Below, one piece after another: positions 28,937 to 45,154 of a stretch of DNA of 64,000 nt. A model generated the notes under the pieces. The model was not told the DNA's origin, searched no databases, and saw nothing but the letters and a program-made list of their open reading frames with translations. Position 1 is the stretch's first letter, and each line of letters starts with the position of its first letter. Where the stretch lies: positions 3,162,001-3,226,000 of the forward strand of contig NZ_CP009517.1 in assembly GCF_000970305.1 (NCBI RefSeq). Direction: 5' to 3'. The position numbers were made by a program, and so were the translations under genes. This DNA comes from Methanosarcina barkeri 3 (lineage in GTDB: Archaea > Halobacteriota > Methanosarcinia > Methanosarcinales > Methanosarcinaceae).

Positions 28937-29150
28937 AGTTTGAGCCTCTTTTACTTGGTATGGAATAAGGTATTGTGAATAGAGGTAATGACGTAAACAG
29001 AGTCTAAAATTCTTTTTCTGATATAAATGCTTATTCTATAGCGAATATTTATAACTCGGATGAGAAGACCAAGTCTTAACACATTATAATATACTTTGAT
29101 AGTAGACACCTTAAGTTCAGACGCAGAATAGGGAATATCGAATAGGGCAA

Positions 29151-29304
29151 TATGTCTATTATCCGATTATGTCTATTATCCGATTATGTCTATTATCCGA
29201 TTATGTCTATTATCCGATTATGTCTATTATCCGATTATGTCTATTATCCGATTATGTCTATTATCCGATTATGTCTATTATCCGATTATGTCTATTGTCC
29301 GATT
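29151..29304. repeat. 17-bp tandem repeat upstream of serS
   Basis: Nine near-identical copies of TATGTCTATTATCCGAT; only the last differs (TTGTCC for TTATCC). It occupies the 600-bp gap between serS and the decayed nucleotidyltransferase. The low divergence suggests recent expansion. No gene is seen in 28937-29553. Confidence 0.92.
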
Positions 29305-29553
29305 TCTGGAGCTGAAACTTTAACCTTGTGACGGGAAGGAACTAACCAAAAACTTGACCCCGGCTACGTTTACGGTCATGTAGTGACCGACCTTTCCGAA
29401 AAAAATGGAAGCGGAAAAAGGAGTACAAATTTGTAATACAGCAGATTATATTATGCAAAGGACACAGTACTTTATACGCGGGAAGATCGCTCAAAACGTA
29501 GATTAACTTAAAAATGGGTGGAAACAAGTATTGCAGGATATAAAGGAACATAT

Positions 29554-29843
29554 ATGGATGTTAACCAGATCCGGCTCCTTATTTTAGAAAGAAAGGACAA
29601 AATAAAAGAAGAGTTCAAAGCTGAAGTCCTGGGCGTTTTCGGCTCGTACGCACGTGACAAAGAAAAAAAGAAAGTGATATTGACGTCCTTGTGAGGTTTG
29701 GAGAAGGAACTACCCTCTTACACCTTGTGGGACTTGGATATTATCTTGAGGATTTATTTGGAGTTCCAGTTGATGTTGTTTCAGAGAGAGCTCTCCACCC
29801 GATGATGAAAGATGACGTGTTAAAAGAGCTGGTACCGGTATAA
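29554..29843 (+). pseudogene. MNT-type nucleotidyltransferase broken by a frameshift
   Basis: The frame from ATG 29554 encodes an MNT-family nucleotidyltransferase (minimal antitoxin type) up to VFGSYARDKEKK, then shifts by one base within a poly-A run at about 29662-29672. The downstream frame continues with ESDIDVLVRFGEGT and VPVDVVSERALHP to TAA 29841. Joined, it would give about 96 residues with an intact GSYAR...SDIDV catalytic motif. The first frame alone stops at 29694. The cause is a one-base deletion, a sequencing error or a slippery site; I favour decay because the neighbours are also broken. A second full-length relative follows at 29898. Confidence 0.75.
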
Positions 29844-29897
29844 GGCAGACCGTTCGTGCAGGTACCCAGCAATGAAAGAATAAGGAAGAAAATAAAA

Positions 29898-30206
29898 ATG
29901 CCTTCCCAACAACTTAAAAATGCTGACCATTTCATAAGAATACTCAGGCAACACCTGCCTGAGATCAGAGAAAAATACAGCGTGAGCTATCTCGGAATTT
30001 TCGGGTCATACGTTCGTGGGGAACAAACAAGTGAAAGCGACCTTGATGTTCTGGTGGAATTTGATGAAACACCTGGCCTTCTGAAATATATTGAGCTTGA
30101 GTATTACCTTAGTGATCTGTTAGGAGTAAAAGTAGACCTGGTAACCAGAACCGGTCTCAAGCCAAATGTTGGAAAACATATTCTCAATGAAGTGGTTTCT
30201 TTATGA
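29898..30206 (+). CDS. MNT-type nucleotidyltransferase (MntA-like)
   Basis: About 102 residues from ATG 29898, which has AAGGAAG nine bases upstream; the longer frame to 29856 has no such site. The core motif FGSYVRGEQTSESDLDVLVEF is the nucleotidyltransferase GS-x10-12-DxD catalytic signature, followed by VKVDLVTRTGLKP, as in MntA. MntA proteins neutralise a HEPN-domain RNase toxin by transferring AMP to it. The stop overlaps the ATG of a truncated HEPN-like frame at 30203 (ATGA), so the antitoxin now appears to lack its toxin. Confidence 0.83.
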   Translation: MPSQQLKNADHFIRILRQHLPEIREKYSVSYLGIFGSYVRGEQTSESDLDVLVEFDETPGLLKYIELEYYLSDLLGVKVDLVTRTGLKPNVGKHILNEVVSL

Positions 30207-30304
30207 CTTACAGAAGAGATGAGAGAGATTTAAAGCCCCATTTTTCGGGCATTTTTAATGAAGATATCCGAATACCCGGTATCAAAAAGAACTCGTATGC
30301 CTGA
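30203..30304 (+). pseudogene. Truncated start of a HEPN toxin partner
   Basis: ATG 30203 overlaps the stop of the nucleotidyltransferase gene, the classical layout of the MntA/HEPN pair. About eleven residues (MTYRRDERDLK) look like the start of a HEPN-like gene; the rest to TGA 30302 is read through the opposite strand of an MBL-fold gene fragment. The HEPN catalytic R-x4-6-H motif is absent. I interpret it as the scar of a deletion. Confidence 0.5.
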
Positions 30305-30391
30305 ATCCTCCAGCAGAAAAGACAAACCAGGCTCGGCAAAGAAATACCTGTCAATAAGGGTGTTGTTATCAACAAGGACGGTGAGATTCAT
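30230..30391 (-). pseudogene. N-terminal fragment of an MBL-fold metallohydrolase
   Basis: From ATG 30391 the minus strand encodes 53 residues starting MNLTVLVDNNTLID, with AEPGLSFLLED and IRVLFDTGYSDIFIKNA, the standard opening of the small metallo-beta-lactamase-fold hydrolases related to the methanopterin-pathway phosphoribosyl enzymes. The frame ends at TAA 30230, before the HxHxDH metal site. The break coincides with the break in the HEPN frame on the other strand, so one rearrangement probably fused the two truncated genes. Confidence 0.7.
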
Positions 30392-31059
30392 AAAGTGTTT
30401 ATTTTAGTTGCGGGGTATAATAGTATTATTATCAAATACTTGAAAAAAATATTTAGAGTTGAGTTTAGTACTGCGCGTGGTGTTGTAGGAAAATAAAAGT
30501 TGGGACTAAGTCTGGAACGAATACTCCGCTCAACCGAGGCCTTGGCTCACCTGTGATTTTGTAGACACATTGGACAAAACCCAAGCTCTGGAAGTCAAAG
30601 CTAAGTAATAATGAGCTAAGGAGTCAGCTATACTGAAACTTCAATAAACGAAGCAGAATTCATTTTACAGCCGGAATAGGCTAAATGTATCAGTTACTAA
30701 AGCAAGGTCCAAATGCTTGTTTTTCCTGCAGAGACCCTTGCTTGATTCTCTCTAGAGATCCTGAAAAATAAGAAAGTTGCTGGGGCTCAGACAATGTTTA
30801 ACCTAGTGGAGTTTTGTCGGTGGAGGAAAGAGAGATTTTGAAATGAAGTTAAGTTATGGTGGGAGACTTCAGGGTGATGGGATCAGGGAAAAATAATAAA
30901 ATCGAATAAAAAAGTGTTGTTTAAAAGATTCAAAATGAGATTTTACAGTATTAAGTCTTTTTCATTCGCTGAATTCACTTAAGAGGAAATAACATATCTG
31001 ATCCGGTTATATCGAAAAATCATAGAATTATTTTTTGAGATAGCTACTAATGAAAACAG
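30392..31059. other. Intergenic boundary of the island
   Basis: 670 bp with no supportable gene. The composition becomes more A+T-rich after about 30,900, where the island begins. No attachment-site repeat or tRNA was recognised here. Confidence 0.4.
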
Positions 31060-31563
31060 ATGAATAACTTTAATTATGAGAAATATAATTCAGATTTTGA
31101 TCGCATGCTTAACTCAGATGTTGAAGTGACAAAAGCAAGATTAGAAGAAGTACCCCAAATAAAATCCATTGCAGATAAGAATAAAAACTTAATTGGATTT
31201 ATTCTAAGAGGTTCGCTAGTCGAATCGATTGAAAAAGAAAATTTGGTCGTGTTAAAGTACAAAAAAATTATAATTGGATTTATAAACTATCATCATAGAA
31301 AAGATTCTCAGACTACTTTATATGAAATATGTGTTGATGAAAATAATCGGAACAAAGGTTATGGTAAAATATTGATTAATTACCTACTTCAAGAGGCAAA
31401 ATCTCAAAAGAAAAAAACATTATTATTGAATTGCCCAATTGATGGCATTGCACATTCATTTTACTTGAGATGCGGTTTCAAAATAAAGAGTACACGCACC
31501 CATACGAAAAATGGGAAAAAACTGGTAACTTGGGTGTATAAACTCGATGATAACAATACGTAA
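31060..31563 (+). CDS. GNAT-family acetyltransferase at the head of the island
   Basis: 167 residues with a GNAT domain: TKARLEEVPQIKSIA at the start, a central IIGFINYHH strand, then LYEICVDENNRNKGYGKILINYLL, whose NRNKGYGK is the R/N-x-x-G-x-G acetyl-CoA loop (about residues 103-110), and the C-terminal GIAHSFYLRCGFK. The acetyl acceptor is unknown. It precedes the TGT-like gene by 50 bp on the same strand and is probably co-transcribed with it. If the neighbour inserts a deazaguanine base into DNA, this enzyme could acylate that base; that is inference only. Confidence 0.83.
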   Translation: MNNFNYEKYNSDFDRMLNSDVEVTKARLEEVPQIKSIADKNKNLIGFILRGSLVESIEKENLVVLKYKKIIIGFINYHHRKDSQTTLYEICVDENNRNKGYGKILINYLLQEAKSQKKKTLLLNCPIDGIAHSFYLRCGFKIKSTRTHTKNGKKLVTWVYKLDDNNT

Positions 31564-31612
31564 AAAAGTTTCCAAAAAGCAGTAGATCACTAATTTCTGG
31601 TTAGGTGATAAT

Positions 31613-32578
31613 GTGGAGTTCTTTGTATCTATGTCTGCTCATCCTGGTTTGATTAAGAAGATGAGAGATTCACTTAAAGATTTTGAAAAAATAAAATGGC
31701 CACTCAAAAACGTATTATATACACCAGTTTTTTCAACCAAAAAAACCAGTGAGGCAATAAAAGATTTGAAAGACAATGATGGTAGTAAAATAATGTTTGA
31801 TTCAGGTGGCTTTTTTGTCCAACAAGGAAAAATAACCACTCAAGAACTTTTCAGTAAATTAACAGATTTTTATTCGCAAAATGAATGGGGAGATTACTAT
31901 GTTTTGCCTGATAGCCCCCCAGTAAATGGAGACTCAGACCTTATCGTAGAATATAAGGTGAGAGATACAATTACTAACGCAAAAATATTTCATGATCAAC
32001 TAAAAGAAAATATTCAGAAAAAATGTATTCCTGTAGTTCAAGGGCATAATAAAGAACAGATATTTCGATGTGTAAGAGAATACTCAGATTTGAATGTTTC
32101 TAGAATTGGTTTTGGTAGTTTTGGAACATGTGGGAGTAATAACGGTATAAATTTCTTGACAAGTAAATCAATGGAAAATGTAGAATATATGATGAATCTG
32201 CTAAAAGATTATTCTCTAGAAGTTCATGCTTTTGGGGTAGGAGGAACATCAAGCTTATCAAAGTTGTGTGAGGCAGGTTTTACATCATTTGATAGTGCTG
32301 GCTGGAAAAGAGCAGCTGCATATGGAGATGTGTTATTTCCCTTTCATAGTACACACAATATAACTCATAGATCATCTGAAAAGAGCTGTAGTATATTAAG
32401 CAGAAATAACTTTGAGAAAGTAAAAACCGAATCAAATCATGCTTGTTATTTTTGTGAAGATTTTAATAAACTTCAGAGCCAGGTGTATTATCGATACTTA
32501 CATAACATGATTGCAATATTTGATACTGTTGAGTTCTTAAAAAAATATCCTATATCATCACATAATGATATCCCATGA
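31613..32578 (+). CDS. TGT-fold transglycosylase resembling DNA-modifying DpdA
   Basis: This 321-residue protein has the tRNA-guanine-transglycosylase barrel landmarks: DSGGFF near residues 63-68 (matching the DSGGFQ base-binding Asp loop), HAFGVGG near 204-210 (YLMGVG in TGT), FDSAGWKRAA near 226 (FDCVxPTR, carrying the nucleophile Asp), and a reduced zinc site C-x2-C near 278-281 with His in LHNM. It lacks the C-terminal PUA region of archaeal tRNA archaeosine TGTs and has a divergent zinc site, as in DpdA/TgtA5, which exchange guanine for preQ0 in DNA. Its location beside a BREX-like operon supports a DNA target. It starts at GTG 31613 with TAGGTGAT upstream. The alternative is a divergent tRNA enzyme. 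Confidence 0.72.
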   Translation: MEFFVSMSAHPGLIKKMRDSLKDFEKIKWPLKNVLYTPVFSTKKTSEAIKDLKDNDGSKIMFDSGGFFVQQGKITTQELFSKLTDFYSQNEWGDYYVLPDSPPVNGDSDLIVEYKVRDTITNAKIFHDQLKENIQKKCIPVVQGHNKEQIFRCVREYSDLNVSRIGFGSFGTCGSNNGINFLTSKSMENVEYMMNLLKDYSLEVHAFGVGGTSSLSKLCEAGFTSFDSAGWKRAAAYGDVLFPFHSTHNITHRSSEKSCSILSRNNFEKVKTESNHACYFCEDFNKLQSQVYYRYLHNMIAIFDTVEFLKKYPISSHNDIP

Positions 32579-32775
32579 TTTCCTAAGCGAGTATTTATCC
32601 ATTATCCGCCTCCGATCAATTTTTTGGTACTTATTAGCTATCTTTTCACTATATTTGGCTAACTATAATATTTAGGGATAAATTGGATGATAGAGTAGAT
32701 GAACTCTTAATCTTTAAGATATTTTAAGATATCTGCAATTAAGAATATAATTCAAATAAATATTAATTAGTATAT

Positions 32776-32797
32776 AAAGCATATTTCTATGCTTTTT
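32776..32797 (+). terminator. Hairpin plus T-run after the TGT-like gene
   Basis: Seven-base stem AAAGCAT/ATGCTTT (32776-32782 and 32789-32795) with a six-base loop, running into TTTTT. It lies 200 bp after the stop and separates the two transcription units of the island. I see no gene in the 570-bp gap 32579-33149. Confidence 0.45.
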
Positions 32798-32903
32798 ATA
32801 TAAAGTATTTCCCTAAATGTTCCTTAATATAAATTTTTTTCCTTTGATAGTGTTTTTTACTTCATTTTATTCTCTTTATGGACTAACTATATTATATTAA
32901 TTC

Positions 32904-32916
32904 TTAATATATAAAA
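32904..32916 (+). promoter_or_regulatory. Candidate TATA box of the seven-gene operon
   Basis: TTAATATATAAAA lies 234 bp upstream of the first start codon. Transcription would begin near 32,940 and give a leader of about 210 bases. AATATAAACATAAAA near 33053 is a nearer alternative. Both are guesses from sequence in very A+T-rich DNA. Confidence 0.3.
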
Positions 32917-33149
32917 AGGTATTTATGCACTCCGTTATTAAGAAATTATTATAGATAAACTTAAGTTTATATTCATATTTTTAGGCTCACCTAAGGGAAA
33001 ATCGACAATTTACAGCTTTAACTTCAAAGCTTCAGGCTTGCTAAAATTAACGCAATATAAACATAAAAAAAGCATAAACACTTATGATTTTGATCCTAAG
33101 TTTGTAGTTCTACTATTAAGTGACGATTCCAACATAAAGAGATGCTTCC

Positions 33150-33959
33150 ATGAGTGATTTTCATCTTGATATAAGTGTAGTACCAAAGAATATATTTGAG
33201 TTTATTGAAATTGCTGCTGACTTATCAAGTTTAGACGATTCAAAATTATCGAAAGAATCGGAGGAAAAATTAGAGAATTATAAAAAAAGACAATCTCACC
33301 TTACAGCAATGGTCAAAAAAGTGGGAATAACTTCTAAAGAATTAAAATTAACTGAATTAGGAGAAAAGTTATATAAAATAATGTATGACGATGAAACTCT
33401 TTTTTATAATATTTTGCATTATTTACTTTACACTCAGTATTATTTTGAGAAAAGAAATCACGCTTCTTGGGTATACAATAAATTTGTAGATATTCTCTAC
33501 GAGAACAGAGAAATTGACGAAATGCGTATAAGTGATTTCAATGAAAACTTCGCTCTAAAAATAGTAAACCTAGCCAGAGAAGAACTAAATCAAGAGGGAA
33601 TATCTTTTAGAGGTCGAAGTATATCACCTCTAATTTCATGGGTTGGCTCACTTAATCCAAGCTGTATAAATCATGAAAATAAAAAAATATCGTTTAAACT
33701 AAGAAACTTTTGTCAGCCACAGTTGTTTTTGTTAGCTATTGATTATGCTTTCAAAAAGAGAAAAGCAGAATATGGATCTCTTATACTTATAACAGATAAT
33801 ACGATAGCTGACATCTGTAAGATATGCTTAATAGATCCTGAATCTTTTGATTCTTGTTTTGATTTGTGTAAAAAAAGTTTTGATTTCGTTGATTTCTCAA
33901 TTGGATGGGAAAAACATATTCGATTAAATAGAGAACCTAAGATAGATGATTTTATATGA
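33150..33959 (+). CDS. Unrecognised 269-residue first gene of the island operon
   Basis: I do not recognise the family. The N-terminal 100 residues look all-helical with a winged-helix flavour (TSKELKLTELGEKLYKIMYDD); the middle has HASWVYNKFVDILYENREI and REELNQEGISFRGRSISPLISWVGSLNP; the C-terminus has LILITDNTIADICKICLIDP. The general layout (helical N-terminus, conserved Trp/Arg middle, small C-terminal domain) recalls DUF4007-type proteins that accompany DNA-modification defence systems, but I cannot confirm that. It starts the operon; its TGA overlaps the next ATG by four bases (ATGA). Possible roles are regulator or DNA-binding adaptor. Confidence 0.7.
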   Translation: MSDFHLDISVVPKNIFEFIEIAADLSSLDDSKLSKESEEKLENYKKRQSHLTAMVKKVGITSKELKLTELGEKLYKIMYDDETLFYNILHYLLYTQYYFEKRNHASWVYNKFVDILYENREIDEMRISDFNENFALKIVNLAREELNQEGISFRGRSISPLISWVGSLNPSCINHENKKISFKLRNFCQPQLFLLAIDYAFKKRKAEYGSLILITDNTIADICKICLIDPESFDSCFDLCKKSFDFVDFSIGWEKHIRLNREPKIDDFI

Positions 33960-34447
33960 ATTTTATTTCAATCCATAATAAAATTAAAGGTAGCGTTTCT
34001 GAAGATTGGCTTACGGATTCTCAAAAAAATATTTTGACAAATATATTGGACAACAAGATACATGATCTTATTAACGTTTATGGGCCTGATGGTGTTGGAA
34101 AAACTTTTTTGGGTTGGGCACTACAAAAGCGCAATTATGCTACATACTTTTCTGATATTGAAAATGTAATAGAAGGATGTCATATTGCTGTAATCGACAA
34201 TGGGAACTCCTCTTTTGAAGAATACAAAACCATTTTAAAAATTATGGAACTAAAAAGAATAAAGCGTGTAATATATTTAAGTAGGAATAAACTTGACGCA
34301 AAAGTTTATTCACTAAATCTTGCTCTCACAGCCACTGATATAGAAAAAGTGGTAAAAAACATTAATAGTGTTGGTTTAAACATTTACGATTTGGATTGTG
34401 ATAACCTATGGGTCTTAATATTTAAAAAGTGTAGGTGTTATATTTGA
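33956..34447 (+). CDS. Small P-loop NTPase
   Basis: The 163-residue protein has one clear Walker A motif, GPDGVGKTFLGWAL near residues 43-56, and a plausible Walker B strand IEGCHIAVIDNGN near 72-84. It is too short for a complete AAA+ module with lid, so it may be an accessory ATPase or a partner of the large ATPase that follows. The start overlaps the previous stop (ATGA), and its own stop overlaps the likely TTG start of the next gene. The pair of a small and a large P-loop protein in a row is a useful signature of this operon. Confidence 0.75.
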   Translation: MNFISIHNKIKGSVSEDWLTDSQKNILTNILDNKIHDLINVYGPDGVGKTFLGWALQKRNYATYFSDIENVIEGCHIAVIDNGNSSFEEYKTILKIMELKRIKRVIYLSRNKLDAKVYSLNLALTATDIEKVVKNINSVGLNIYDLDCDNLWVLIFKKCRCYI

Positions 34448-37400
34448 ATACTGATACTAAATATTTTGAAACAATTATAGATAAAAGAGAGTGCATTGCC
34501 ACATTTTCTGCTGATGATTTAATAAAAGTTCCTAGCCAAGTGGACTCTTCATACAATAGGCATATATTCACCCACATTTCCATAGGCGAAACTGATGAAT
34601 ATGAAAAAAAATTAGTCCAAAAATTAAATGAAGGAGTATCATTAGTTGGTTATATTTCTGCCCCTTATGGCTATGGGAAAACAACGACTGCAATTCACGC
34701 ATGGATTACATGTCAAGATAAGCAAATAATGACAGTTCCACCTTTCACTTGCAATTCATTAAAAGGTATAATGGACGCTACATATGGTTGGATAAAGTAC
34801 AAATTTGGGATGGAATCTCCAGATTACGTAGTAGACATAGAGGGAATATACCGAAAATATGCAGATCTTTCCATAGATAGTTTAGCTAAAAAAGACTGCG
34901 AAGATGTTGGTATTCCTTTCGAACAAGCAAGAAAATCTATTGAAAATAAGATATCAAGTGGAATTCTTAATCTTAGAATTACCCCTGAAATATTAACACA
35001 TTTCTTAGACTCTTGCATGGACACAGTATTAAAAGCAGGTTTTAAAGGCCTTATTATTTTTGCAGATGAATTTCAGACTTATTTTGATCAGAAAAATTTT
35101 GCAACAAATGAGATTACAAATGAATGGAGAGAATTAATTTGGAATATAATTAATAAAAACAAAAAGTATGGAATAATATTCATTATCCCAGAAGAGAAGG
35201 AAAGTACAATTAATGAGCGAGCCGGAGATATAATTCAGCGATTAAGAGAGCAAAGATTAGTAATAAATCTTAAGAATGTTTATGACAGAAAATTCCCTGC
35301 ATATTTAATGGAAGAATATGCTAAAAAATTTAAATTCGACCCTTCAAAACTAGTAGATAAGTACACATTATCTTCTGTTGGCCAAATTGTCACTGACAAA
35401 GATCTTGGGAATGGTCCAAGAACAGTAGTTAATATTTTCAAATTAATATTTCAGCACTATAACAATACAAGTCAACAATATACGGTAATAAACTTAATCA
35501 ACAGTTATTTAGATGGAAACATTGTACATGATGGACCAGATCAAAAGATAGTTTCCTCAGTAAAAAAAGCTTTATCTTCTGATAGGGTTAAATCCGAAAA
35601 CGATAGGAGTGTAATAAAATTATTGGCTGCTTTCCCCAGAGGTTGTCCACTAGAAGTATTAGATATTTATGGTCTTCATAACAATTTCGTTAACTTAGAA
35701 AAATCACTACTAGGCGATGTTATTAAGAACCTTGCTGAAGGACCAACACTAAAGGATTTATCCAACCAATCAGATGGAGAAGTATCAAAAGTAGATGAAT
35801 TAATTAAAAAGTTTAGAGATCAGTATGATAGAAATGATATTTGTGCAGAAGCTGCAGAGAAGGCATTTATAAAGTATATATTTGCTGAAATATTTGGAGA
35901 AAGAAAAGGCGGACTGATTGGTTTTGCAGGCCTTAATAATATATATCCTACACGTTACGGGTACAAAGAATGTATAATTACTGGAAGTTTTGATGAAAAA
36001 TATCCATATAGGACTTTACACCTTACAATATCTATAAAAGAAAATAAGAATAACGAAAATAAAAATATAAAAGAAAATAAAAAACATCCAATTGTCAACC
36101 CGAATGAAGACATAGATCTTGGATTCTATTTGAATTACTTAGACTATGGTCAGCATGAGATTATAAAATATGATACAAATAGAATTTTAATTGTTTTAGA
36201 CTTGAATAAGAAAATTGCGAGAAATGGGCAATTTCCTAACGACTTAAGGAAATTACAAGATTTTATAAGCCCAGAAGAAATCACTCCCTTACTTTCTTTG
36301 AGCCTTACAAGCTATATAGATAAATTCTTAGAAGATGCCGATATTAAACAGAACGAGAAAGGTCAACTTGAGTATTTGAAGCAAAATTTAATAAAACATT
36401 CAATAATATCTTTATTTGATGAAAAATTAAAAGACACAAGTGGATACAACATAAAAAGAACTGGGAAGAAATTAATTGAAGATCTGTTTTCGAATGTTTG
36501 TGAATCATTATATCCATCTTATAAAACTTTTATTCATTCTAATCAGTGGCGAGAATCAATTACACGCTACATGAGTGCATTAAGTTGTATAAAAGTATCC
36601 CAGAGAAGGGGTCATGAGGAACTACAAGGCGAAAAAGCAGATATTGCAGCACTTTTTGGATATACTAAATTACATGCAGGATTTGAATTATTGTTAGGGG
36701 TTTGGAAGGAAAATCTTCTTTATTCGGATTGGGAGAAAGGAAAAACTGCAGTTATAAAATTTTTGATACATCCGCTTGAAAAAGAAATTCTGGGTTTTAT
36801 TGAAAATAACGAGAGTATATCTTTGGATGATGTATTTAAAATCGGAAAAAATCTCGGATATACAGAAGAAGAATCCGATGTTGCATTAGATCTTTTAGCT
36901 AATCGGCAACTTATATGCGAAAACAATTCTATATTCTCAAAATATACAGCCGATTTGTCAGCTGACGAGCTTCTATTTGAAATAGAAGAATTAGAAACAT
37001 TATATCATGATTTAAAGGATATTGATTTGACCTTAGACGATAAGGAGATAATCACTAAATTAGAGAAGTATGAAGAAAAAGCGAAGAATTCAGAAGACTA
37101 CGAAATTCTTTATGAAATTAAATGGGAGCTTAAATCAATAAGAGATACATTAAAAAATAAACAAAAAATTTTGGAGAACAGTTTAAATAATAATTTAACC
37201 GGACTGACCAAAAAAATTGATGAAATTGTTCGTCAAAGCATGCCTAAAGAACTGAACGAAAATCCACAAGGTGTAGTGGGTTTTGTCCAACCTATAGTGG
37301 AAAGTAAAATCCGTATTTCTGCCCAATACAAGTCATTGAAAGAAAAATTCACTAAACTAAATGATGACATTAAAAAGATACAAAAGTTACCAAGAAATTC

Positions 37401-38325
37401 AATTGATGATCTTAAAGAATTGGATACAAAAAATAGAGGTTATAAAAGTCAACTTGAGGAGCTACAAAAAGATAAAAATCAGTTGACTAAATATATGAAA
37501 GGATATGTTAAATGGTTGAATATACTTGAAAAAAGTAACCAAGTTTACACGAATGTCTCTGAATATAACGAAAAAATTGAACCTATAGATGAATTTAGCC
37601 GTGTTCAGGAATATATTAAGGACGTTTCTTATAAATTTGCAGAACATAAAAATGAATTTTTATTAGATTTTGAAAATTATGAAACTAAAATAGAAGAAAT
37701 TGAAGAAAGTTATATGGCAAAAGAAAAACAACAAAACAGTTTATTTGATACAAAAAAAGAGAAGTATGAAGCTTTATTGAGAAATATTGGATTTAGTGGA
37801 AGATTAAGTTCGCGACTTCAAAAAAGTGATATTGAAGGATCTCACAGGGATTTGTACAAGGAAATTGAGCATCAATTTAATGAGAGTTTAAGCAAAAAGA
37901 TTACAGAAATCGAGGAAAGTAGAACGAACATTCTTCACGCAAAACGGATAAGGGGTCTCAACGTTGACAATTTGTTAATAGAAGTAGAGGGCATCAAAAA
38001 CAGTATTGAACCACTTAAAGAAATAAGTATAGAAAGCATAAAAAATGAAGATAAATTCGAAGATAGCATAAATAATATTAAAGAGTTGTTTGTAAAATAT
38101 GAGGAATTTAAAGGAAATAAAATAAAATTAATTAATCAAGCAAAAGATGCAGAAAATGAATTAAGTAAAAAAGTACTAGAATTTGTGAAAAAAAGAAGGG
38201 ACCTAAGTTTAGAAGATCTGTTAACAGATTTTGATTGCAGTATAGAAGATATGGAAGATTCTCTTTTAGAGTTATTTAAATGTAATCAAATAAAGATCTC
38301 AGTATCAACGAGGTTTCGAGATTGA
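34444..38325 (+). CDS. Large BrxC-like P-loop ATPase with C-terminal coiled coil
   Basis: About 1293 residues from TTG 34444 (TTGA overlap with the previous stop; GTG 34435 is possible). An N-terminal ATPase domain has Walker A APYGYGKTTTAIHAW near residues 73-87 and Walker B GLIIFADEFQTYFD near 200-213; the middle part carries helical and KAP/STAND-like regions; from about residue 840 to 1230 it is a long coiled coil, ending in a winged-helix-like DLSLEDLLTDFDCSIEDM. Size, domain order and neighbouring PglZ are those of BrxC/PglY ATPases of BREX phage defence or the large ATPase (DpdH-like) of Dpd islands. It probably drives DNA or protein remodelling in the complex. Strongly A+T-rich codon use suggests transfer. 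Confidence 0.72.
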   Translation: MNTDTKYFETIIDKRECIATFSADDLIKVPSQVDSSYNRHIFTHISIGETDEYEKKLVQKLNEGVSLVGYISAPYGYGKTTTAIHAWITCQDKQIMTVPPFTCNSLKGIMDATYGWIKYKFGMESPDYVVDIEGIYRKYADLSIDSLAKKDCEDVGIPFEQARKSIENKISSGILNLRITPEILTHFLDSCMDTVLKAGFKGLIIFADEFQTYFDQKNFATNEITNEWRELIWNIINKNKKYGIIFIIPEEKESTINERAGDIIQRLREQRLVINLKNVYDRKFPAYLMEEYAKKFKFDPSKLVDKYTLSSVGQIVTDKDLGNGPRTVVNIFKLIFQHYNNTSQQYTVINLINSYLDGNIVHDGPDQKIVSSVKKALSSDRVKSENDRSVIKLLAAFPRGCPLEVLDIYGLHNNFVNLEKSLLGDVIKNLAEGPTLKDLSNQSDGEVSKVDELIKKFRDQYDRNDICAEAAEKAFIKYIFAEIFGERKGGLIGFAGLNNIYPTRYGYKECIITGSFDEKYPYRTLHLTISIKENKNNENKNIKENKKHPIVNPNEDIDLGFYLNYLDYGQHEIIKYDTNRILIVLDLNKKIARNGQFPNDLRKLQDFISPEEITPLLSLSLTSYIDKFLEDADIKQNEKGQLEYLKQNLIKHSIISLFDEKLKDTSGYNIKRTGKKLIEDLFSNVCESLYPSYKTFIHSNQWRESITRYMSALSCIKVSQRRGHEELQGEKADIAALFGYTKLHAGFELLLGVWKENLLYSDWEKGKTAVIKFLIHPLEKEILGFIENNESISLDDVFKIGKNLGYTEEESDVALDLLANRQLICENNSIFSKYTADLSADELLFEIEELETLYHDLKDIDLTLDDKEIITKLEKYEEKAKNSEDYEILYEIKWELKSIRDTLKNKQKILENSLNNNLTGLTKKIDEIVRQSMPKELNENPQGVVGFVQPIVESKIRISAQYKSLKEKFTKLNDDIKKIQKLPRNSIDDLKELDTKNRGYKSQLEELQKDKNQLTKYMKGYVKWLNILEKSNQVYTNVSEYNEKIEPIDEFSRVQEYIKDVSYKFAEHKNEFLLDFENYETKIEEIEESYMAKEKQQNSLFDTKKEKYEALLRNIGFSGRLSSRLQKSDIEGSHRDLYKEIEHQFNESLSKKITEIEESRTNILHAKRIRGLNVDNLLIEVEGIKNSIEPLKEISIESIKNEDKFEDSINNIKELFVKYEEFKGNKIKLINQAKDAENELSKKVLEFVKKRRDLSLEDLLTDFDCSIEDMEDSLLELFKCNQIKISVSTRFRD

Positions 38326-39383
38326 AGTTAAGTGAACTGGATAACCTATTATCCAAAACTCCAGTTTATTTGTCCCTCGATAGCTTAGTCTCATTATGTT
38401 ATTTAGATAACATTACAATATTCCATAATAGGAGAGATTTCTGGAGAAAGATAGATCAATTAGAGCCCCTGAAGTTATGTAGGTATGTAATACTCGACGA
38501 TCCAGATTATCGGTTACCGTATGTAAGGCTTAAACACAATCCTTTCACAAATAATCTGAATTCAATATTATCAAAAAAATACGAAGAAATTCAGAGGCTA
38601 ATGTTGACTCAAAAAGATCTTTCTCAAGAAATATTATTTAGATCAAATGCTGAAATTGTCGTATTAATTTTGATTGATGGTTTATCTTACATTGATTGTC
38701 TAAAGTATAGTCCAGAACCTTGTATCGTAAATGGAACCACGACAACAGAGTCAGGATTTACAAATATAGTATATGGAAGTGAGAATCGCCCTCTATCATT
38801 TAAGTTATATGATAAGGGGTACATGAGAAGATTCGGTTTTACTTATTGGGAAAGAGAAAACAATGAACTTACTAATAAGCTTTTCAAAGGCTTTAATGAG
38901 GTTATTAAAGTCAGTTCCTTTGAAGACGTCATAAAGCATGTTCGCTCTATGGAACTAAAACCACACACGTTTCTACAAATTATAAGGAATGGGTTAGACA
39001 GGTATGCGCACAATATGCATGATAAACCACTAAAAGAGCAGGAAATCGAACAAATTTTTAAAGATGTTTTTGAGCTCAAAGAAACATTTGAATCTAAAGG
39101 AATAACAGCTAATATATTTGTTACATCAGATCATGGATTACTGTGGAAATACGAACATGAGTTTAAAGTAATCGAACCTTATAATGAAAGCCCAAGATAC
39201 TTGAAAGGGTTGCATAAAATCGAAGGTCATTCAGTAATCTCAAAACTGAATGAACATTACAATACTCTTTTAGCTTATCCTTACATACTTCGAAGCTTCA
39301 GAAATAATGAATGGGGCATACATGGGGGAATTTCATTTGAAGAATCAATAACACCATTTATAGAATATAAGGTGGATAAATGA
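38322..39383 (+). CDS. Short PglZ-like alkaline-phosphatase-fold protein
   Basis: The 353 residues show the PglZ/alkaline-phosphatase superfamily landmarks: the metal-binding Asp in VLILIDGLSYID near 114-124, a Thr-rich nucleophile loop TTTTESGFTNIVYG near 138-151, DHG in FVTSDHGLLW near 266-275 and the terminal GIHGGISFEESITPF near 331-345. PglZ is a core BREX subunit, here much shorter than the roughly 800-residue bacterial form, as if only the catalytic domain is kept. It starts at TTG 38322 overlapping the previous TGA (TTGA) and its own stop overlaps the next ATG (ATGA). The phosphatase substrate is unknown. Confidence 0.8.
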   Translation: MKLSELDNLLSKTPVYLSLDSLVSLCYLDNITIFHNRRDFWRKIDQLEPLKLCRYVILDDPDYRLPYVRLKHNPFTNNLNSILSKKYEEIQRLMLTQKDLSQEILFRSNAEIVVLILIDGLSYIDCLKYSPEPCIVNGTTTTESGFTNIVYGSENRPLSFKLYDKGYMRRFGFTYWERENNELTNKLFKGFNEVIKVSSFEDVIKHVRSMELKPHTFLQIIRNGLDRYAHNMHDKPLKEQEIEQIFKDVFELKETFESKGITANIFVTSDHGLLWKYEHEFKVIEPYNESPRYLKGLHKIEGHSVISKLNEHYNTLLAYPYILRSFRNNEWGIHGGISFEESITPFIEYKVDK

Positions 39384-40567
39384 ACAATCTATTTATTGGT
39401 AAAGACAAAAAAACAGATGAAGATGCTTTCATTGATGCAAGTAAGTCAAGAGCAATTTTAATATGCGGAAAAAGAGGCAGCGGAAAAAGCTATACTTTAG
39501 GAAATTTAGCTGAAGAGCTACAGTCTAACTGTAAGGATGCCTTGTGTTTAATTATAGACCCAATGGGTATATACTGGACAATGTGCAACCCAAACTATGA
39601 TCAGGAGAATGTTCTATGGGAGTGGGGCTTATCTCCAAGAGGACTTAATGTAAAAATATTGGTTCCTGGAGACCCAAAAAACAGATATGGTGATGAAGTA
39701 GTAAATGTAATGGAAGAGCATGGAGTTCAGTTTCAGTCGATCAGTTTGAATCCCTCTGACATATCTCCTGACGGATGGTGCGACTTATTTAATCTAAGCA
39801 TTAATGATGCAATGGGAATAGTCCTTTATAGAGCTGTTCAGGGATTAAAAAAGCAGTACAAAAATGATTTTTATATTAAGGATATTATAAATTCTATAGA
39901 GTATGATCCAAAAGCTAATGATAAAAGCCGCGAAGCACTGCTAAATAGGCTTGAAATGGCTAATTCATGGGGCTTATTTGGAGATACATACACAAATACA
40001 TGGGATTCTTTTGATACAAATTCTGTAAATATTGTTGATTTAAGCGTATTAGATCCTGGACGTTACGGAACCCGAAATTTAGTTGTCTCTATATTTTGTA
40101 GGGACCTCTTCACAAAGAGAACGGAAGCAAGAAGAAGAGAAGAGTTAGGATTGAGTACAAGTACTCCAAAAGTATGGCTAATGATTGATGAGGCTCATCA
40201 GTTTGCACCTTCTGGGAAGTCTACATTATCAAAAGAACTACTAGTAAGGTGGGTAAAAGAAGGAAGACAACCTGGATTATCCTTAGTAGTAGCTACCCAA
40301 CAACCATCCGCAATTGACCATGAGGTTCTATCTCAATGCGACATAGTTATTTCACACAAGATAACTACGAAAGAAGATGTCGATGCATTAAATAAATTGA
40401 GTCAAGACTACATGGGAGGCGAATTAAAAACATACATTCGCAATATTAAAGGTAACGGGGAGGCTGTAATGGTTGATGATGAAAATGAAAAAGTAAGTAT
40501 GATACAAATTAGGCCCCGGAAATGTAAGCATGGAGGCGGGGAACATAAAGAAAAAAACAAATATTAA
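39380..40567 (+). CDS. HerA-like ATPase
   Basis: 395 residues of the HerA/FtsK (DUF87) P-loop class: Walker A GKRGSGKSYTLGNLAEEL near 30-47, Walker B VWLMIDEAHQFAP near 264-276, and sensor region LSLVVATQQPSAID near 300-313, followed by SQCDIVISHKIT. HerA hexamers translocate DNA and usually pair with a nuclease (NurA, Sir2 or others); none is next to it here. It ends with an unusual charged tail (KCKHGGGEHKEKNKY). The 3' end overlaps the next gene by 38 bp, so the translation is coupled. It may be the motor of the system. Confidence 0.87.
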   Translation: MNNLFIGKDKKTDEDAFIDASKSRAILICGKRGSGKSYTLGNLAEELQSNCKDALCLIIDPMGIYWTMCNPNYDQENVLWEWGLSPRGLNVKILVPGDPKNRYGDEVVNVMEEHGVQFQSISLNPSDISPDGWCDLFNLSINDAMGIVLYRAVQGLKKQYKNDFYIKDIINSIEYDPKANDKSREALLNRLEMANSWGLFGDTYTNTWDSFDTNSVNIVDLSVLDPGRYGTRNLVVSIFCRDLFTKRTEARRREELGLSTSTPKVWLMIDEAHQFAPSGKSTLSKELLVRWVKEGRQPGLSLVVATQQPSAIDHEVLSQCDIVISHKITTKEDVDALNKLSQDYMGGELKTYIRNIKGNGEAVMVDDENEKVSMIQIRPRKCKHGGGEHKEKNKY

Positions 40568-41513
40568 GGAAAAAATAGGAATTACTGCTCTTGTTCCTCC
40601 GGAAATAATATACAGTTGCAACAAAGTTCCGGTTGATGTTAACAATTTTGTAACATATTCTACACTCCAGCCTAGAAACAAACTTTGTGCGTGGTGTGCA
40701 ATATGGAGAGAAGCGATAATTAAAAAAGAGATTGATATTGATCGTCTTGTGGTAGTAGCGGGTGGAGACTGTAACAATGCACTAATAGACGGGGAAAGAG
40801 TTTCTTTCAGCGGTATCCCGACAGGATATTTTTTTTATCCATTTGATGGAGATTCTAATTATATGAAAACACAATTAGAATCATTATGCCTCTTCTTAGG
40901 AGGACTTTACGACAACTCGATCTTTCGACGAATCCTGCAATTAAAGAAAAAAGCCTTAGAAATTGATTTGATGCGTCTAAACGATGAAATATCTTCATCT
41001 ACATGTTTTGAGAAACTTATCTCGTGTAGTGATTTTCAAAGTGATTTAAATAATTTTGAAAAAAAACTTGATGAAACGCTTCAGAAAAATGAAAAAGTAG
41101 AATATACAAACCGAATAGCAATGCTAGGCCTTCCTCCCATATATAATGATTTTCATGAAACTGCAGCTTCTTTTGGGTTACATATTGTATATGATGAATT
41201 ACCATATGAGTTTGTTAGAATTACAGGAACTTCAATAGAGGAGTTAGCTAAAAACTATTCCACTTACACATTTGCTAGAAATCTAAAATACAGGATAAAT
41301 TTTCTAAAAAGAGAATTGTCAAAAAGAGATGTGGATGGTATTGTTCACTATACGCAGTTTTCTTGTCACCATAATCTTGAGGATGATATTATCCGTAACG
41401 TAGTTGACAAACCAGTGTTAACAATACAAGGAGACATGCCTTCTAGAACTCCTGAGCAGGTAAAATTGCGTCTTGAAGCATTTTCTGAAATGTTGAAAGG
41501 TGAAGTACATTGA
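40530..41513 (+). CDS. 2-Hydroxyacyl-CoA dehydratase-like (HgdB/double-cubane) Fe-S protein
   Basis: The 327-residue protein matches the HgdB/BcrB superfamily: PPEIIYSCNKVPVDVN near the N-terminus, a Cys pair KLCAWC near 50-55, GGDCNNA near 77-83, and the C-terminal DGIVHYTQFSCHHNLEDD near 270-285 with GDMPSRTPEQVKLRLEAF. The Cys residues are those that hold the reductase Fe-S cluster. These proteins accept ATP-driven low-potential electrons from a BadF/HgdC partner, and the next gene encodes exactly that. Its place inside a defence-like operon, rather than beside a CoA transferase, is unusual. ATG 40530 overlaps the preceding gene. The substrate is unknown. Confidence 0.82.
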   Translation: MEAGNIKKKTNIKEKIGITALVPPEIIYSCNKVPVDVNNFVTYSTLQPRNKLCAWCAIWREAIIKKEIDIDRLVVVAGGDCNNALIDGERVSFSGIPTGYFFYPFDGDSNYMKTQLESLCLFLGGLYDNSIFRRILQLKKKALEIDLMRLNDEISSSTCFEKLISCSDFQSDLNNFEKKLDETLQKNEKVEYTNRIAMLGLPPIYNDFHETAASFGLHIVYDELPYEFVRITGTSIEELAKNYSTYTFARNLKYRINFLKRELSKRDVDGIVHYTQFSCHHNLEDDIIRNVVDKPVLTIQGDMPSRTPEQVKLRLEAFSEMLKGEVH

Positions 41514-42226
41514 TAGGATTCGATGTAGGTAGTCGAACTGCTAAACTTGTTAGATTTGATGACGATAATATATCTGATTATAAAATAATTAATAGTATGA
41601 ATTGGGAAAAACTATTTGATACTCTTAACTTAAAAGATGTTAGTAGTGTTTGTACCACAGGTTATTTTAGAAAAAGTATACCTAACAGTTGGAACATAAC
41701 AGAAATAACTGCTTCGATATTTGGGGCTAAATACTATTACCCTAAGGCAGATGTTATAGTAGATATTGGAGGTCAGGATACTAAAGTAATTGATATACGA
41801 AATAATTCATTTAAGCTTAATGATAAATGTAGTGCAGGTACAGGCGCTTTTCTAGAATTTGTTGCAAAATATTTTGACCTAGAAGTGGAAGAACTTGAAA
41901 AATTACATAAAGAATCTGAAAAGCCAATTACATTAAATCAAACCTGTGGAATTTTTGCATTATCTGAAATGATTTCACAAGTTGTAAACCACGAAAAAAT
42001 AGAAAATGTAATTTCAGGAATGCATTATTCCTTCGCACATCGGATATCTCACATGGTTCCTGAATGTAGATCTGTTGTGTTAGTCGGTGGTGTAGTTAAG
42101 AATAAAGGTATAGTTGATGCTTTGTCAAATATACTCAATTGTGAAATATTGATTCCACCAGATCCTCAAATTATCAATGCTTTAGGAGCCGCAAGGTACG
42201 CTCAACAGTTAAGAAGTAAAAGTTAA
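41510..42226 (+). CDS. BadF/HgdC-type ATPase activator
   Basis: 238 residues of the ASKHA-fold activator family (archerase): the phosphate loop GFDVGSRTAKLV at residues 3-14, DIGGQDTKVI near 85-94, the Cys of DKCSAGTGAF near 107, the second Cys of NQTCGIFALSEMISQ near 146, and VVLVGGVVKNKGI near 190. Two Cys, one per monomer pair position, hold the 4Fe-4S cluster at the dimer interface, so it should hydrolyse ATP to push an electron to the preceding HgdB-like protein. The start TTG 41510 overlaps the previous TGA (TTGA). It is the last gene of the operon. Confidence 0.88.
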   Translation: MIGFDVGSRTAKLVRFDDDNISDYKIINSMNWEKLFDTLNLKDVSSVCTTGYFRKSIPNSWNITEITASIFGAKYYYPKADVIVDIGGQDTKVIDIRNNSFKLNDKCSAGTGAFLEFVAKYFDLEVEELEKLHKESEKPITLNQTCGIFALSEMISQVVNHEKIENVISGMHYSFAHRISHMVPECRSVVLVGGVVKNKGIVDALSNILNCEILIPPDPQIINALGAARYAQQLRSKS

Positions 42227-42354
42227 CGCCTTTTTATTATATATTATACATTTTAAATTTATCAGAATGAAAATTCATCACCCATCGTCACAACCCTTTC
42301 ACTCTTCCCTCTCCTCAAAAAAACCCTGTAAACAAAATCCTCCCCATAAATTCT

Positions 42355-42668
42355 CCTCATTCCTCCCTCTTCCTCACCTGCACCCTCACAACTTTCTCAT
42401 CCTGATCCAGGAAAACTCAAACCACCCCTTCACATCAACCAGTTCCTCAACAGATATTCTCAGTAAACTCCAGATCCCCTCCTTAAGCTTTTAACAAGTA
42501 TCTTAGGAATTCCCGGTCGCTATCAAAAATTTTTCATTCAGGGTCCGGTTTGAGAATTTCACGATCTAGAGATTCTATCGCGAATCGGTTTGGGAAGGAT
42601 CAAAAACTGAAAACGGCAGGTGGGGAGAGAGGAGCCGTACGTGCGAAAAATATATTTTTACAGAAATA
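42355..42668 (+). repeat. Dispersed 320-bp direct repeat, copy 1
   Basis: This stretch aligns with 43150-43474 over about 320 bp, with high identity in the core CTTAAGCTTTTAACAAGTAT, GGTCCGGTTTGAGAATTTC and GATCTAGAGATTCT blocks and ends at AATATATTTTTACAGAAAT. It lies right after the island operon and is non-coding; the 75-codon open frame over it is Pro/Ser-rich artefact. It may mark the island border. Confidence 0.8.
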
Positions 42669-42873
42669 TTCAGACCGTTTTGACTTTTATTCGATTGTGA
42701 GTCAGCATGAACGTTAATAATTAATTTACCTATAATTCACAGACCTCAAACTCAGTCAAGAAACTTCTGAAAGTAGATTTTAGTCACAAATAATTTACCT
42801 GAGTAAGTTAGATTAGACGTAAAGAAACTAAAAATGTAAACTTTTAAAATCTCGCGCCATTGGTGCGAGAAAT

Positions 42874-43077
42874 TTGCTACAAAACAAATGGAAATTATGC
42901 TTAAAAACAGATACTACTGAATTCGCCTGTAAAAGAGAAAGAGAGGATTTTTATGTAATTTTTTCAGAGCCAATTGGAGTTGCTGAGTACAAAATCGTTT
43001 CTACCCTGCCAGAAAAACTCAAAGGAAAATTGCCCTCTCCTGAAGAAATTTCGAAATTCCTGGAGGAAATAAAGTAA
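42874..43077 (+). CDS. Small hypothetical protein between repeat copies
   Basis: 67 residues from TTG 42874, with no obvious ribosome-binding site and so an uncertain start. A beta-rich N-terminus (FYVIFSEPIGVAEYKIVSTLP) is followed by an amphipathic helix. I recognise no family. Codon use is compatible with a real gene, but it may be a fragment. It sits between two copies of the 320-bp repeat. Confidence 0.35.
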   Translation: MLQNKWKLCLKTDTTEFACKREREDFYVIFSEPIGVAEYKIVSTLPEKLKGKLPSPEEISKFLEEIK

Positions 43078-43149
43078 AGAAGTAAGTTTTTCCATTTCAA
43101 TCAAAACATAACCCTCCTCTAAAACCAAAATAAGAAAATACCACCAAAT

Positions 43150-43474
43150 CTTCCCCTCTCCTCCTCTTCCTCTCCTGCATCCTTAGAATATTCTTAAAAC
43201 CCCGATCCTGGCAAGTTCAAACGACCTCCTTCACATCACCCAGTTCCTCAACAGATATTCCCAGTAAATTCCAAAACCCCCTCCTTAAGCTTTTAACAAG
43301 TATCTCAGGAATTCCCGATCGCCATCAAAAATTTTGCATTCAGGGGTCCGGTTTGAGAATTTCACGATCTAGAGATTCTGTCGCGAATCGGTTTGGTGAA
43401 GGATCAAAAACTAAAAAACGGTAGGTGGGGAAAAGGGGAGCAGTACGCACCGGAAATATATTTTTACAGAAATA
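43150..43474 (+). repeat. Dispersed 320-bp direct repeat, copy 2
   Basis: Same orientation as copy 1, with small indels (for example CAGGGGTCC against CAGGGTCC). The end AATATATTTTTACAGAAAT lies about 140 bp before the HicB-like gene at 43617, so it may contribute a promoter; the A+T-rich end resembles a TATA element. Confidence 0.8.
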
Positions 43475-43616
43475 GATCTGAAGATCTCTATGAAATCAGC
43501 TTTTCCATATAATCCTCTTCCTGAAAACAGACCTGCAAAGAGTAAACGAGAAAGTTAACACAGCTATAAATAAAATCATTGGAATATGATTTATATCTGA
43601 AAGACGAGGTCAATCA

Positions 43617-43835
43617 ATGAGAGAATTTACTGTAGTTATTGAACAGGACGAAGATGGAGTCTATGTAGCTTCTGTGCCTGAACTTCCAGGATGTCATACA
43701 CAGGCAGAGAGTCTTGACGAATTAAACAGAAGAATAAAAGAAGCAATTGAGCTGTACCTTGAGGTTGAAGCCGAAGAGGGAGAAAAGGAACATCTTGATT
43801 TTGTCGGGATACAGAAGGTCAAAGTTGAGGTTTGA
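43617..43835 (+). CDS. HicB-family antitoxin-like protein, orphan
   Basis: 72 residues with the HicB half-RNase-H fold signature: REFTVVIEQDEDGVYVASVPELPGCHTQAES, then an amphipathic helix EAIELYLEVEAE. HicB proteins bind and silence the HicA mRNA interferase. There is no HicA beside it on this strand; the next gene is the opposite-strand hicA at 43927. No C-terminal HTH is seen. The ATG at 43617 follows GACGAGGTCA, a usable ribosome-binding site. Confidence 0.85.
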   Translation: MREFTVVIEQDEDGVYVASVPELPGCHTQAESLDELNRRIKEAIELYLEVEAEEGEKEHLDFVGIQKVKVEV

Positions 43836-43926
43836 ATAGATAAAATAGTGCCTCTTCTCAGCAAAAAGGTAGAAGAGACAAAATTAGAAAATAGGATCTC
43901 TAAAGAGTTCTGGATATACGAAAGAA

Positions 43927-44154
43927 TTACAGAAGCCTGATAAATTCTTCATCAGTCATTCCTGCTTGCCGGATAATTGATTTTAAGGTTCCTGCCGGAA
44001 TTTCCGGATGGTCGGGGACGATAACAATGCGTGTTTCACTAGGAGTTATTTTTTTCATTTTTATGTGGCTTCCCTTCTGCGATACTACCTGAAACCCCTG
44101 GCTGCTGAGTGCTCTGATAACTTCACGAGCTGACTGGGTGGGAAGTTTTGGCAT
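43927..44154 (-). CDS. hicA: HicA-family mRNA interferase toxin
   Basis: 75 residues with the HicA double-stranded RNA-binding-like fold: PTQSAREVIRALSSQGFQVVSQKGSHIKMKK, where the His of GSH is the catalytic residue, and VIVPDHPEIPAGTLKSIIRQAG near the C-terminus. It cuts mRNA when not bound by HicB. The ATG at 44154 follows AGAGGT and lies 32 bp inside the upstream hicB, so the two are co-translated. The order antitoxin then toxin differs from the common E. coli order but is frequent in archaea. Confidence 0.92.
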   Translation of the reverse strand: MPKLPTQSAREVIRALSSQGFQVVSQKGSHIKMKKITPSETRIVIVPDHPEIPAGTLKSIIRQAGMTDEEFIRLL

Positions 44155-44368
44155 GGGAAGAGACCTCTACCGTTGTGGTAAAAACCTGGCCGGCTGCGGG
44201 AATCTGAGCGTCTTCGTCTTCGAGATAGAGTTCAATTGCTTCTTTTAAGTTCTCAATGGCTTCTTCAATTGTTTCTCCCTGGCTTGCAATATCAAGTTCG
44301 GGACACCATGAAACATACCACTTTCCTTCTTTATGAACTACGGCTGAAAACCTGTACGTTTCTACCAT
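44123..44368 (-). CDS. hicB: HicB-family antitoxin
   Basis: 81 residues: FSAVVHKEGKWYVSWCPELDIASQGETIEEAIENLKEAIELYLEDED, the HicB RNase-H-like antitoxin core, plus a short Ser/Ala tail. It overlaps hicA by 32 bp and precedes it in the operon, so it should both repress the operon and neutralise the toxin. The ATG at 44368 has no very strong ribosome-binding site; 44369-44684 upstream holds no gene, though 44505-44545 resembles a decayed end of the 320-bp repeat. Confidence 0.92.
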   Translation of the reverse strand: MVETYRFSAVVHKEGKWYVSWCPELDIASQGETIEEAIENLKEAIELYLEDEDAQIPAAGQVFTTTVEVSSHAKTSHPVSS

Positions 44369-44684
44369 AATTAACAGATTTCCGCATTGCTATAAATGTT
44401 TATCTTGCTGATGCCGGCTCAAAAATTCTGATGCAGATCAGTCTTTTGCTATGAGATGTTTTAGAGGAAACTTACAGGAAACTTGAACTTGCCGGGGGCT
44501 GAGAAAGAGGAGGGGCCTGACTTATAAAATATATTTCTTAAAAAATTCACTTCTGAAGAACTTGCCAGTGGCAGCCTTGCATGAAAAAACAAGAGCAAAA
44601 GAAAATAAGAGCAAAAGAATTATCAAATGTATTGAAGGTATCTTAATTTTCGGCTTTTGCCTGGAAAGGCAGCCAATGACACCT

Positions 44685-44984
44685 TTATATCTTTTCTTTT
44701 TCCTTATTCAGCGCATCTATTTTTGCCTGTATCTCATCCTTCTGCTGCTTGTACCTTATTTTGATTTCTTTAACCTCTTTGTAGACAAGCATGCTTTCGT
44801 CACTTATTCCTTTCATTGACTCTATATGTATTACGAGTTCATCTATCCCTTCGTCCAGTAGCGGTTCTACTTCCCGCCATTCTGCATACTTAGCCTCTAA
44901 TTCTTCCTTACTTTTGTCGTCAAGATCAAAGATCTCATCCCAGAGGTCCATAATCTGGCTTTCTATCTCTTCTTTTGTAGACAT
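44685..44984 (-). CDS. Small coiled-coil protein
   Basis: 99 residues, almost all helical and highly charged (EIESQIMDLWDEIFDLDDKSKEELEAKYAEWREVEPLLDE then a Lys/Glu/Ile heptad region). No conserved catalytic motif and no known family come to mind. The ATG at 44984 has GGAGAG seven bases upstream. It sits in the toxin-antitoxin zone but is monocistronic. It might be a structural or regulatory protein. Confidence 0.65.
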   Translation of the reverse strand: MSTKEEIESQIMDLWDEIFDLDDKSKEELEAKYAEWREVEPLLDEGIDELVIHIESMKGISDESMLVYKEVKEIKIRYKQQKDEIQAKIDALNKEKEKI

Positions 44985-45154
44985 TATCTTCTCTCCGGTT
45001 CGGTAAATCTCTGTATGGGAGCATTCTACTGATTCCCTTTAGAATCCCTTTAAGTAACTTTTTTCTGGCAGCCGTCAAGCCAGCTTTTTAACCAGTGAAA
45101 TAGAATCAATAGTATTTTTATTTGCATAAATGATAAATTTGTCGTGGGGAAAAA

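Follow-up and report, generated by a model that had tools for sequence, protein, structure and literature searches.

How would a defense island built on a BREX-like core tell its own DNA from foreign DNA, when its open reading frames (ORFs) include no site-specific methyltransferase (BrxX/PglX) with BrxL or a helicase? The question is raised by a block of nine genes at positions 31060-42226 of a 64,000-nucleotide stretch of the Methanosarcina barkeri 3 genome (contig NZ_CP009517.1; the whole stretch is called the window below). The block joins BREX-like proteins to a GNAT acetyltransferase and a tRNA-guanine transglycosylase (TGT)-fold protein, and ends in an HGD-D protein with its activase. 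Most likely, this pair is an ATP-driven reductase of 7-cyano-7-deazaguanine (preQ0) that replaces the enzyme QueF. We give somewhat better than even credence to the broader reading that the island is an antiviral system of the BREX-Related Capture (BRC) type, with the pair in place of QueF and a preQ0-derived self mark in DNA of the 7-aminomethyl-7-deazaguanine (preQ1) type, perhaps acylated by the GNAT protein. A more specific version is possible and is put forward more tentatively: the pair, of the Birch-type HgdB superfamily, would be a nitrile reductase making preQ1 for archaeal queuosine and for a GNAT-acylated DNA mark that the BREX-like complex reads as self.

QueF genes in sister loci and the HGD-D pair

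The BRC system was described in January 2026 from 45 taxa (Rakesh and Krishnan; PMC12839542). Its gene set comprises PglZ, a BrxC-like ATPase, a STAND NTPase, a BrxA-like DUF4007 protein, HerA, GNAT and TGT; HerA is universal, GNAT and TGT occur in a subset of loci, and the mark is proposed to be preQ0 (PMC12839542). QueF, preQ1 and HGD-D-type genes are not mentioned in that description. The core gene order of the window recurs in three other genomes (L024, L025 and L035) and in L034, on the Haloplanus plasmid NZ_CP098519.1; partial loci are L026, whose contig begins inside the BrxC-like gene, and L033, on an Oscillatoria plasmid. All five of the other archaeal BRC loci found carry a gene of the QueF family (PF14489, cut-off 27.3 bits). 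It overlaps or sits just upstream of the TGT gene in L025 and L035 (113 bits each), lies between HerA and GNAT in L026 (97 bits), follows GNAT in L034 (62 bits) and is convergent with GNAT in L024 (57 bits). L025, L035 and L026 retain the motifs that characterize true QueF (Cys, PDF, HE and E-L-K/R-S-L-K); the proteins of L034 and L024 are without the HE motif. QueF is found in only five of 100 genomes of the phylum sample, all from one other family, so its presence in the sister loci is not background. A small conserved protein of about 120 amino acids (SLSLSxIDSxR..DEKQxDGKSGE) also flanks the BRC locus in three of the archaeal loci (L025:15778-16143, L034:13247-13618 and L035:6100-6453).

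The window genome, a single contig of 4.56 Mb, has no match to PF14489. It encodes a single HGD-D protein, and the pair stands directly after HerA, in the slot held by queF in L026. The HGD-D model matches HadBC, the double-cubane cluster protein (DCCP) and BzdNO at a TM-score of about 0.67-0.76, and four cysteines are invariant across the subfamily; the activase resembles HadI and DCCP reductase most closely and carries the motifs NDKCSAGTG and NQTCGIFALSE. By fold, cysteine ligands and activase partner, the pair belongs to the HAD/BCR/DCCP superfamily. It shares the fold and the activase partner with HadBC-HadI, class I benzoyl-CoA reductase and DCCP with its reductase, but the window protein is shorter, is 13-19% identical to them, stands in no coenzyme A (CoA) pathway context and has a nitrile base as its proposed substrate. 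Such a substrate is plausible, given that acetylene, hydrazine and azide are all reduced by members of this superfamily, the DCCPs (PMC11971306). The pair is proposed to catalyze the reaction of QueF and to stand in its place in the genome, as judged from sister BRC loci and queuosine genomes. QueF is an NADPH-dependent T-fold enzyme, whereas the pair is of an unrelated family, Fe-S and ATP-dependent, and made of two proteins. The pair is the distinctive and new part of this BRC island. In the open-access PMC literature no report of QueF replacement by an HGD-D pair was found; a subscription paper or preprint could exist.

Distribution of HGD-D, QueA and QueF

A scan of one genome per species added 16 loci whose HGD-D protein is 54-58% identical; they come from anaerobic methanotrophic archaea (ANME)-2, Methanoperedenaceae, metagenome-assembled genomes (MAGs) of other Methanosarcinales, Methanomassiliicoccales and Thermoplasmata. 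The pair adjoins queA and a bacterial-type tgt in L007, L009, L010, L014 (where Pfam confirmed both genes), L019 and L021; HGD-D adjoins queA-tgt without an adjacent activase in L008 and a queA-like ORF in L013, and L077 is a cluster of queH, tgt, queA, HGD-D and activase. Among the 150 genomes of the class sample, QueA occurs in 19, and HGD-D in exactly those 19 and the window genome; QueF occurs in three, one being the BRC locus L026 and the other two virus-like contigs. Ten of the 243 genomes of the phylum Thermoplasmatota have HGD-D (four at 50-59% identity, six at about 30%), and all ten are QueA-positive, against 54 of 243 overall (Fisher p 1.5e-7). QueF is present in none of these ten and in 27 of the 44 QueA-positive genomes without HGD-D (Fisher p 7e-4); these p-values are optimistic and overstate independence, since the sampled genomes are mutually related. 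Across these related samples the HGD-D subfamily follows QueA and excludes QueF, with independent support from the two phyla, the queA-tgt adjacency and the swap of queF and the pair inside BRC.

By phylogeny, the HGD-D protein of the window belongs within the queuosine-linked clade, where it groups as sister with L008 and L013 (95/84); the group at about 30% identity is separate (100/100). This is most simply read as recruitment of an enzyme of the queuosine pathway by the island, and the same subfamily appears to be used by other archaea for making queuosine. A place for the pair in the core metabolism of ANME was considered and rejected, since it tracks QueA and avoids QueF.

QueF in genomes G432 and G408 looked like an exception to this pattern, but in both it lies on one of the virus-like contigs. 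L080:643-18952 (G432:C66), in a MAG of the window's order, encodes a family A DNA polymerase, clamp, clamp loader and SbcC-like protein, together with QueC, QueE, GTP cyclohydrolase, a TGT like phage DpdA (phrog_887, 134.6 bits) and QueF; it is a candidate virus with deazaguanine DNA. L087:10175-12906 (G408:C187) carries a weak QueF-family gene, an ORF like the COG1738 preQ0 transporter and, by eye, a possibly DpdA-like ORF.

The relatedness of the samples is one of several points that weigh against the pair as a QueF substitute. With the four close Thermoplasmatota homologs alone, the exclusion of QueF is not significant (p 0.11), and 17 QueA-positive genomes of that phylum have neither HGD-D nor QueF. 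We know of no superfamily member that reduces a nitrile to an amine; the preQ0-reductase role is a prediction from sequence and distribution, only one BRC locus with the pair is known to us, and the island's TGT could act on tRNA. That single occurrence, and the superfamily's known roles in CoA-thioester dehydration and aromatic reduction, would suit a different account, in which the pair is a passenger or serves the ordinary metabolism of CoA thioesters or aromatic compounds, and preQ0 as such is the mark, in line with the suggestion of the BRC paper. We regard this as unlikely: the HGD-D gene overlaps HerA by 38 bases and the activase gene by 4, which binds the pair to the operon, HGD-D matches QueA exactly in the class sample and adjoins queA-tgt elsewhere, and the sister loci have QueF-family genes.

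Genomic context gives membership of a pathway and not the step, so the pair might instead be an epoxyqueuosine reductase, substituting for QueG or QueH. This is very improbable, since the L077 cluster has queH together with HGD-D, QueH accompanies QueA and TGT in some Methanosarcinales (PMC8204110), and the window genome is without QueA and should make no epoxyqueuosine. The step missing from HGD-D genomes is QueF. The same survey reports QueA, QueH and TGT in DPANN and Methanosarcinales, with QueF unmentioned (PMC8204110).

The BREX-like core and the transglycosylase

An earlier reading of the window from its letters alone (the original prediction) had listed the families of this A+T-rich block, and its composition is borne out by the ORFs, by profile matches and by a G+C content of 28-37% inside the island against about 38-49% around it; every ORF that it named is present (Table 1). 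One assignment has to be moved: 33150-33959 encodes the BrxA-position protein, whereas the small P-loop NTPase (GPDGVGKT) is the product of the next gene, 33956-34447. The proposed union of a BREX-like core with a DpdA-like TGT agrees with profile matches and fold comparison, and the neighborhood search found its co-occurrence conserved in other genomes such as L024, L025, L035 and L034. The combination is, however, no longer new: it was taken to be undescribed and has now been published as BRC (PMC12839542).

Table 1. Genes of the island, with positions in the window
Feature	Position	Strand	Evidence
GNAT acetyltransferase	31060..31563	+	Pfam Acetyltransf_7 47.9 bits
PUA-less TGT-fold transglycosylase, DpdA-like	31613..32578	+	profile matches, invariant residues, fold match
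BrxA-position protein (DUF4007-like by position)	33150..33959	+	counterparts in five sister loci
Small P-loop NTPase (BrxB/STAND position), intact Walker A GPDGVGKT	33956..34447	+	sequence; homologs L024, L025, L035
BrxC-like AAA+ ATPase with coiled coil (APYGYGKT)	34435..38325	+	full-length homologs
Short, very divergent PglZ, putative effector	38322..39383	+	PADLOC PglZ, motifs
HerA-like DNA translocase	39380..40567	+	DUF87 58.6 bits, PADLOC mad8 90.5 bits
HGD-D (HgdB/BcrB/DCCP superfamily) predicted Fe-S protein	40530..41513	+	HGD-D 85.1 bits
HgdC/BcrA-type ATP-dependent activase	41510..42226	+	TIGR00241 180.7 bits

Consecutive genes overlap by 4 to 38 bases throughout 33150-42226, which suggests that this part is one operon; GNAT and TGT lie upstream of these seven genes, beyond a gap of about 570 bases. 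PglZ, the BrxC-like ATPase, the small NTPase, the BrxA-like protein and HerA stand together in one locus, and with GNAT and TGT, the two genes found in a subset of BRC loci, seven island genes fit the BRC gene set. The BRC domains were assigned partly by structure, with the BrxC-like protein as DUF6079 and the BrxA-like protein as DUF4007 (PMC12839542). Pfam scans of the window and of its relatives found neither family, and BRC membership therefore rests on synteny, composition and homology. The BrxC-like protein is 24-27% identical to five homologs over its full length, and that of L034 scores 27.3 bits against Pfam BrxC_BrxD, which is above the cut-off. The BrxA-position protein had no match in the Pfam search and is 19-25% identical to its counterpart in the five sister loci; when the alignments of the BrxC-like and BrxA-like proteins were used as profiles against the PDB, only coiled-coil or chance matches came up. 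PglZ was recognized by PADLOC at E 1e-4, its alignment profile matches a PglZ structure at E 0.017, and the motifs DGLS, DHG and GG-S are conserved. HerA is 56-61% identical to the HerA of sister loci. The TGT and the BrxC-like protein are absent from the same-genus genomes listed in the phylum samples, so the island is patchy. Just downstream of it lie two copies of a repeat of about 240 bases (42427-42668 and 43228-43474), about 800 bases apart and 81-98% identical by segment.

The TGT best matches the phage TGT family phrog_887 (44.5 bits) and DpdA (26.6 bits, far under the 200-bit equivalog cut-off), with archaeosine TGT at 13 bits; against PF01702 it scores 25.4 bits, slightly below the cut-off of 26.3. 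By its sequence it is a relative of DpdA and not DpdA itself. D63, D100, D227 and H-x-C-x2-C-x15-H are invariant in an alignment of six BRC TGTs, and we equate them with the aspartates of TGT catalysis and with the zinc-binding site of the family. The structure prediction (mean pLDDT 78.5) resembles solved TGTs, with a best E of 2e-9 and TM-scores of 0.6-0.7; the structure alignment left out two rows from plasmid records. No relatives of the TGT or of HGD-D were found in viral contigs or phages, and a viral origin thus gains no support from these searches. Weak TGT matches in G254 and G244 were ruled out as BRC loci by BLAST of their neighbors. In L036:8757-16331 (G254:C3) a distant TGT-like gene (28% identity) is followed by a large protein of 1413 amino acids and then by a HerA-like ATPase; this may be a TGT-HerA locus of another kind.

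The best PDB matches of the TGT fold are tRNA TGTs, and DNA is a predicted target; the TGT may instead modify tRNA or another RNA, with no marking of DNA and with abortive or sensor-type action by the BREX-like core. This account, too, seems improbable. The protein has no PUA domain, the DpdA and phage TGT profiles outscore that of archaeosine TGT, the linkage of TGT to the BrxC, PglZ and HerA proteins is conserved, and preQ0 pathway genes adjoin the plasmid BRC locus. These genes (L034:10986-13007) are queC, queE and one annotated as 6-pyruvoyl tetrahydropterin synthase (queD type), and their position beside the plasmid locus suggests that preQ0 supply travels with the system. DNA is the probable target. 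The GNAT protein belongs to a subfamily shared with L026 (39%) and with L033 (34%), where GNAT and TGT are one protein; this fusion supports a product common to the two.

A predicted preQ1-type mark

The starting material of the self mark would be preQ0, the precursor of archaeosine. The original prediction looked to the archaeosine pathway for its supply, and this remains likely: the window genome encodes a TgtA-like protein (495 amino acids) and an ArcS-like protein (641 amino acids), and the island should thus have access to preQ0 with no queC/D/E genes of its own. The HGD-D protein and its activase would use ATP-driven electrons to convert the preQ0 nitrile to the aminomethyl group of preQ1, the job predicted for QueF in the sister loci. 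The TGT would then replace guanines of the host's DNA with preQ1 (or with preQ0, to be reduced once in place), and the GNAT protein may acylate the exposed amine of preQ1, as an aminomethyl group would be a natural acceptor for such an enzyme. The BrxA-, BrxB- and BrxC-like proteins, PglZ and HerA would recognize DNA that lacks the mark and restrict it, in keeping with the proposal for BRC. The genes, their order, families and motifs, and the distribution of the pair are observed, whereas the reductase activity, the DNA target, the substrate of GNAT and the restriction are inferred from them. A precedent for preQ1 in DNA is the halovirus HVTV-1, which encodes a QueF-type protein and whose DNA has preQ1 in place of about 30% of G (PMC6884629). 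Of the earlier proposal, the deazaguanine kind of mark is retained, with preQ0 giving way to a predicted preQ1 or derivative and a place in DNA that is still presumed; the HgdB/HgdC-type pair was correctly listed, and its role, apparently to replace the QueF of sister loci, was missed. No Rfam family was found in 28000-45000, and hence no known preQ1 riboswitch there.

Three described systems bear on this model. BRC shares PglZ, the BrxC-like ATPase, the small STAND NTPase, the BrxA-like protein, HerA, GNAT and TGT with the island, which adds the HGD-D/activase pair and a predicted mark of the preQ1 type, in contrast to the preQ0 of the BRC paper (PMC12839542). The Dpd system has in common with the island a DpdA-like TGT and proposed insertion of deazaguanine into DNA; the restriction part of the island is BREX-like, its predicted mark is preQ1 or a derivative, and profile searches found no match to DpdB, DpdC or the Dpd restriction genes among its proteins. 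Type 4 BREX, which uses phosphorothioate, shows by precedent that a BREX core can go with a DNA mark other than a methyl group (PMC12839542), although the chemistry of its mark differs, and no PAPS reductase is present among the island proteins.

For BRC, these findings provide a concrete chemistry that can be put to the test: a predicted mark of the preQ1 type, for which the operon or its neighborhood encodes QueF or a replacement. The original description of the system mentions neither QueF nor preQ1 (PMC12839542). The pair is also a candidate for the missing step of archaeal queuosine synthesis, as the open-access literature states no route to preQ1 for archaea that have QueA and TGT and lack QueF. 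If the assignment is true, the pair would be a second, unrelated preQ0 reductase and a new reaction for the Birch-type Fe-S superfamily, and the island would be a case of a defense system recruiting a tRNA-modification enzyme.

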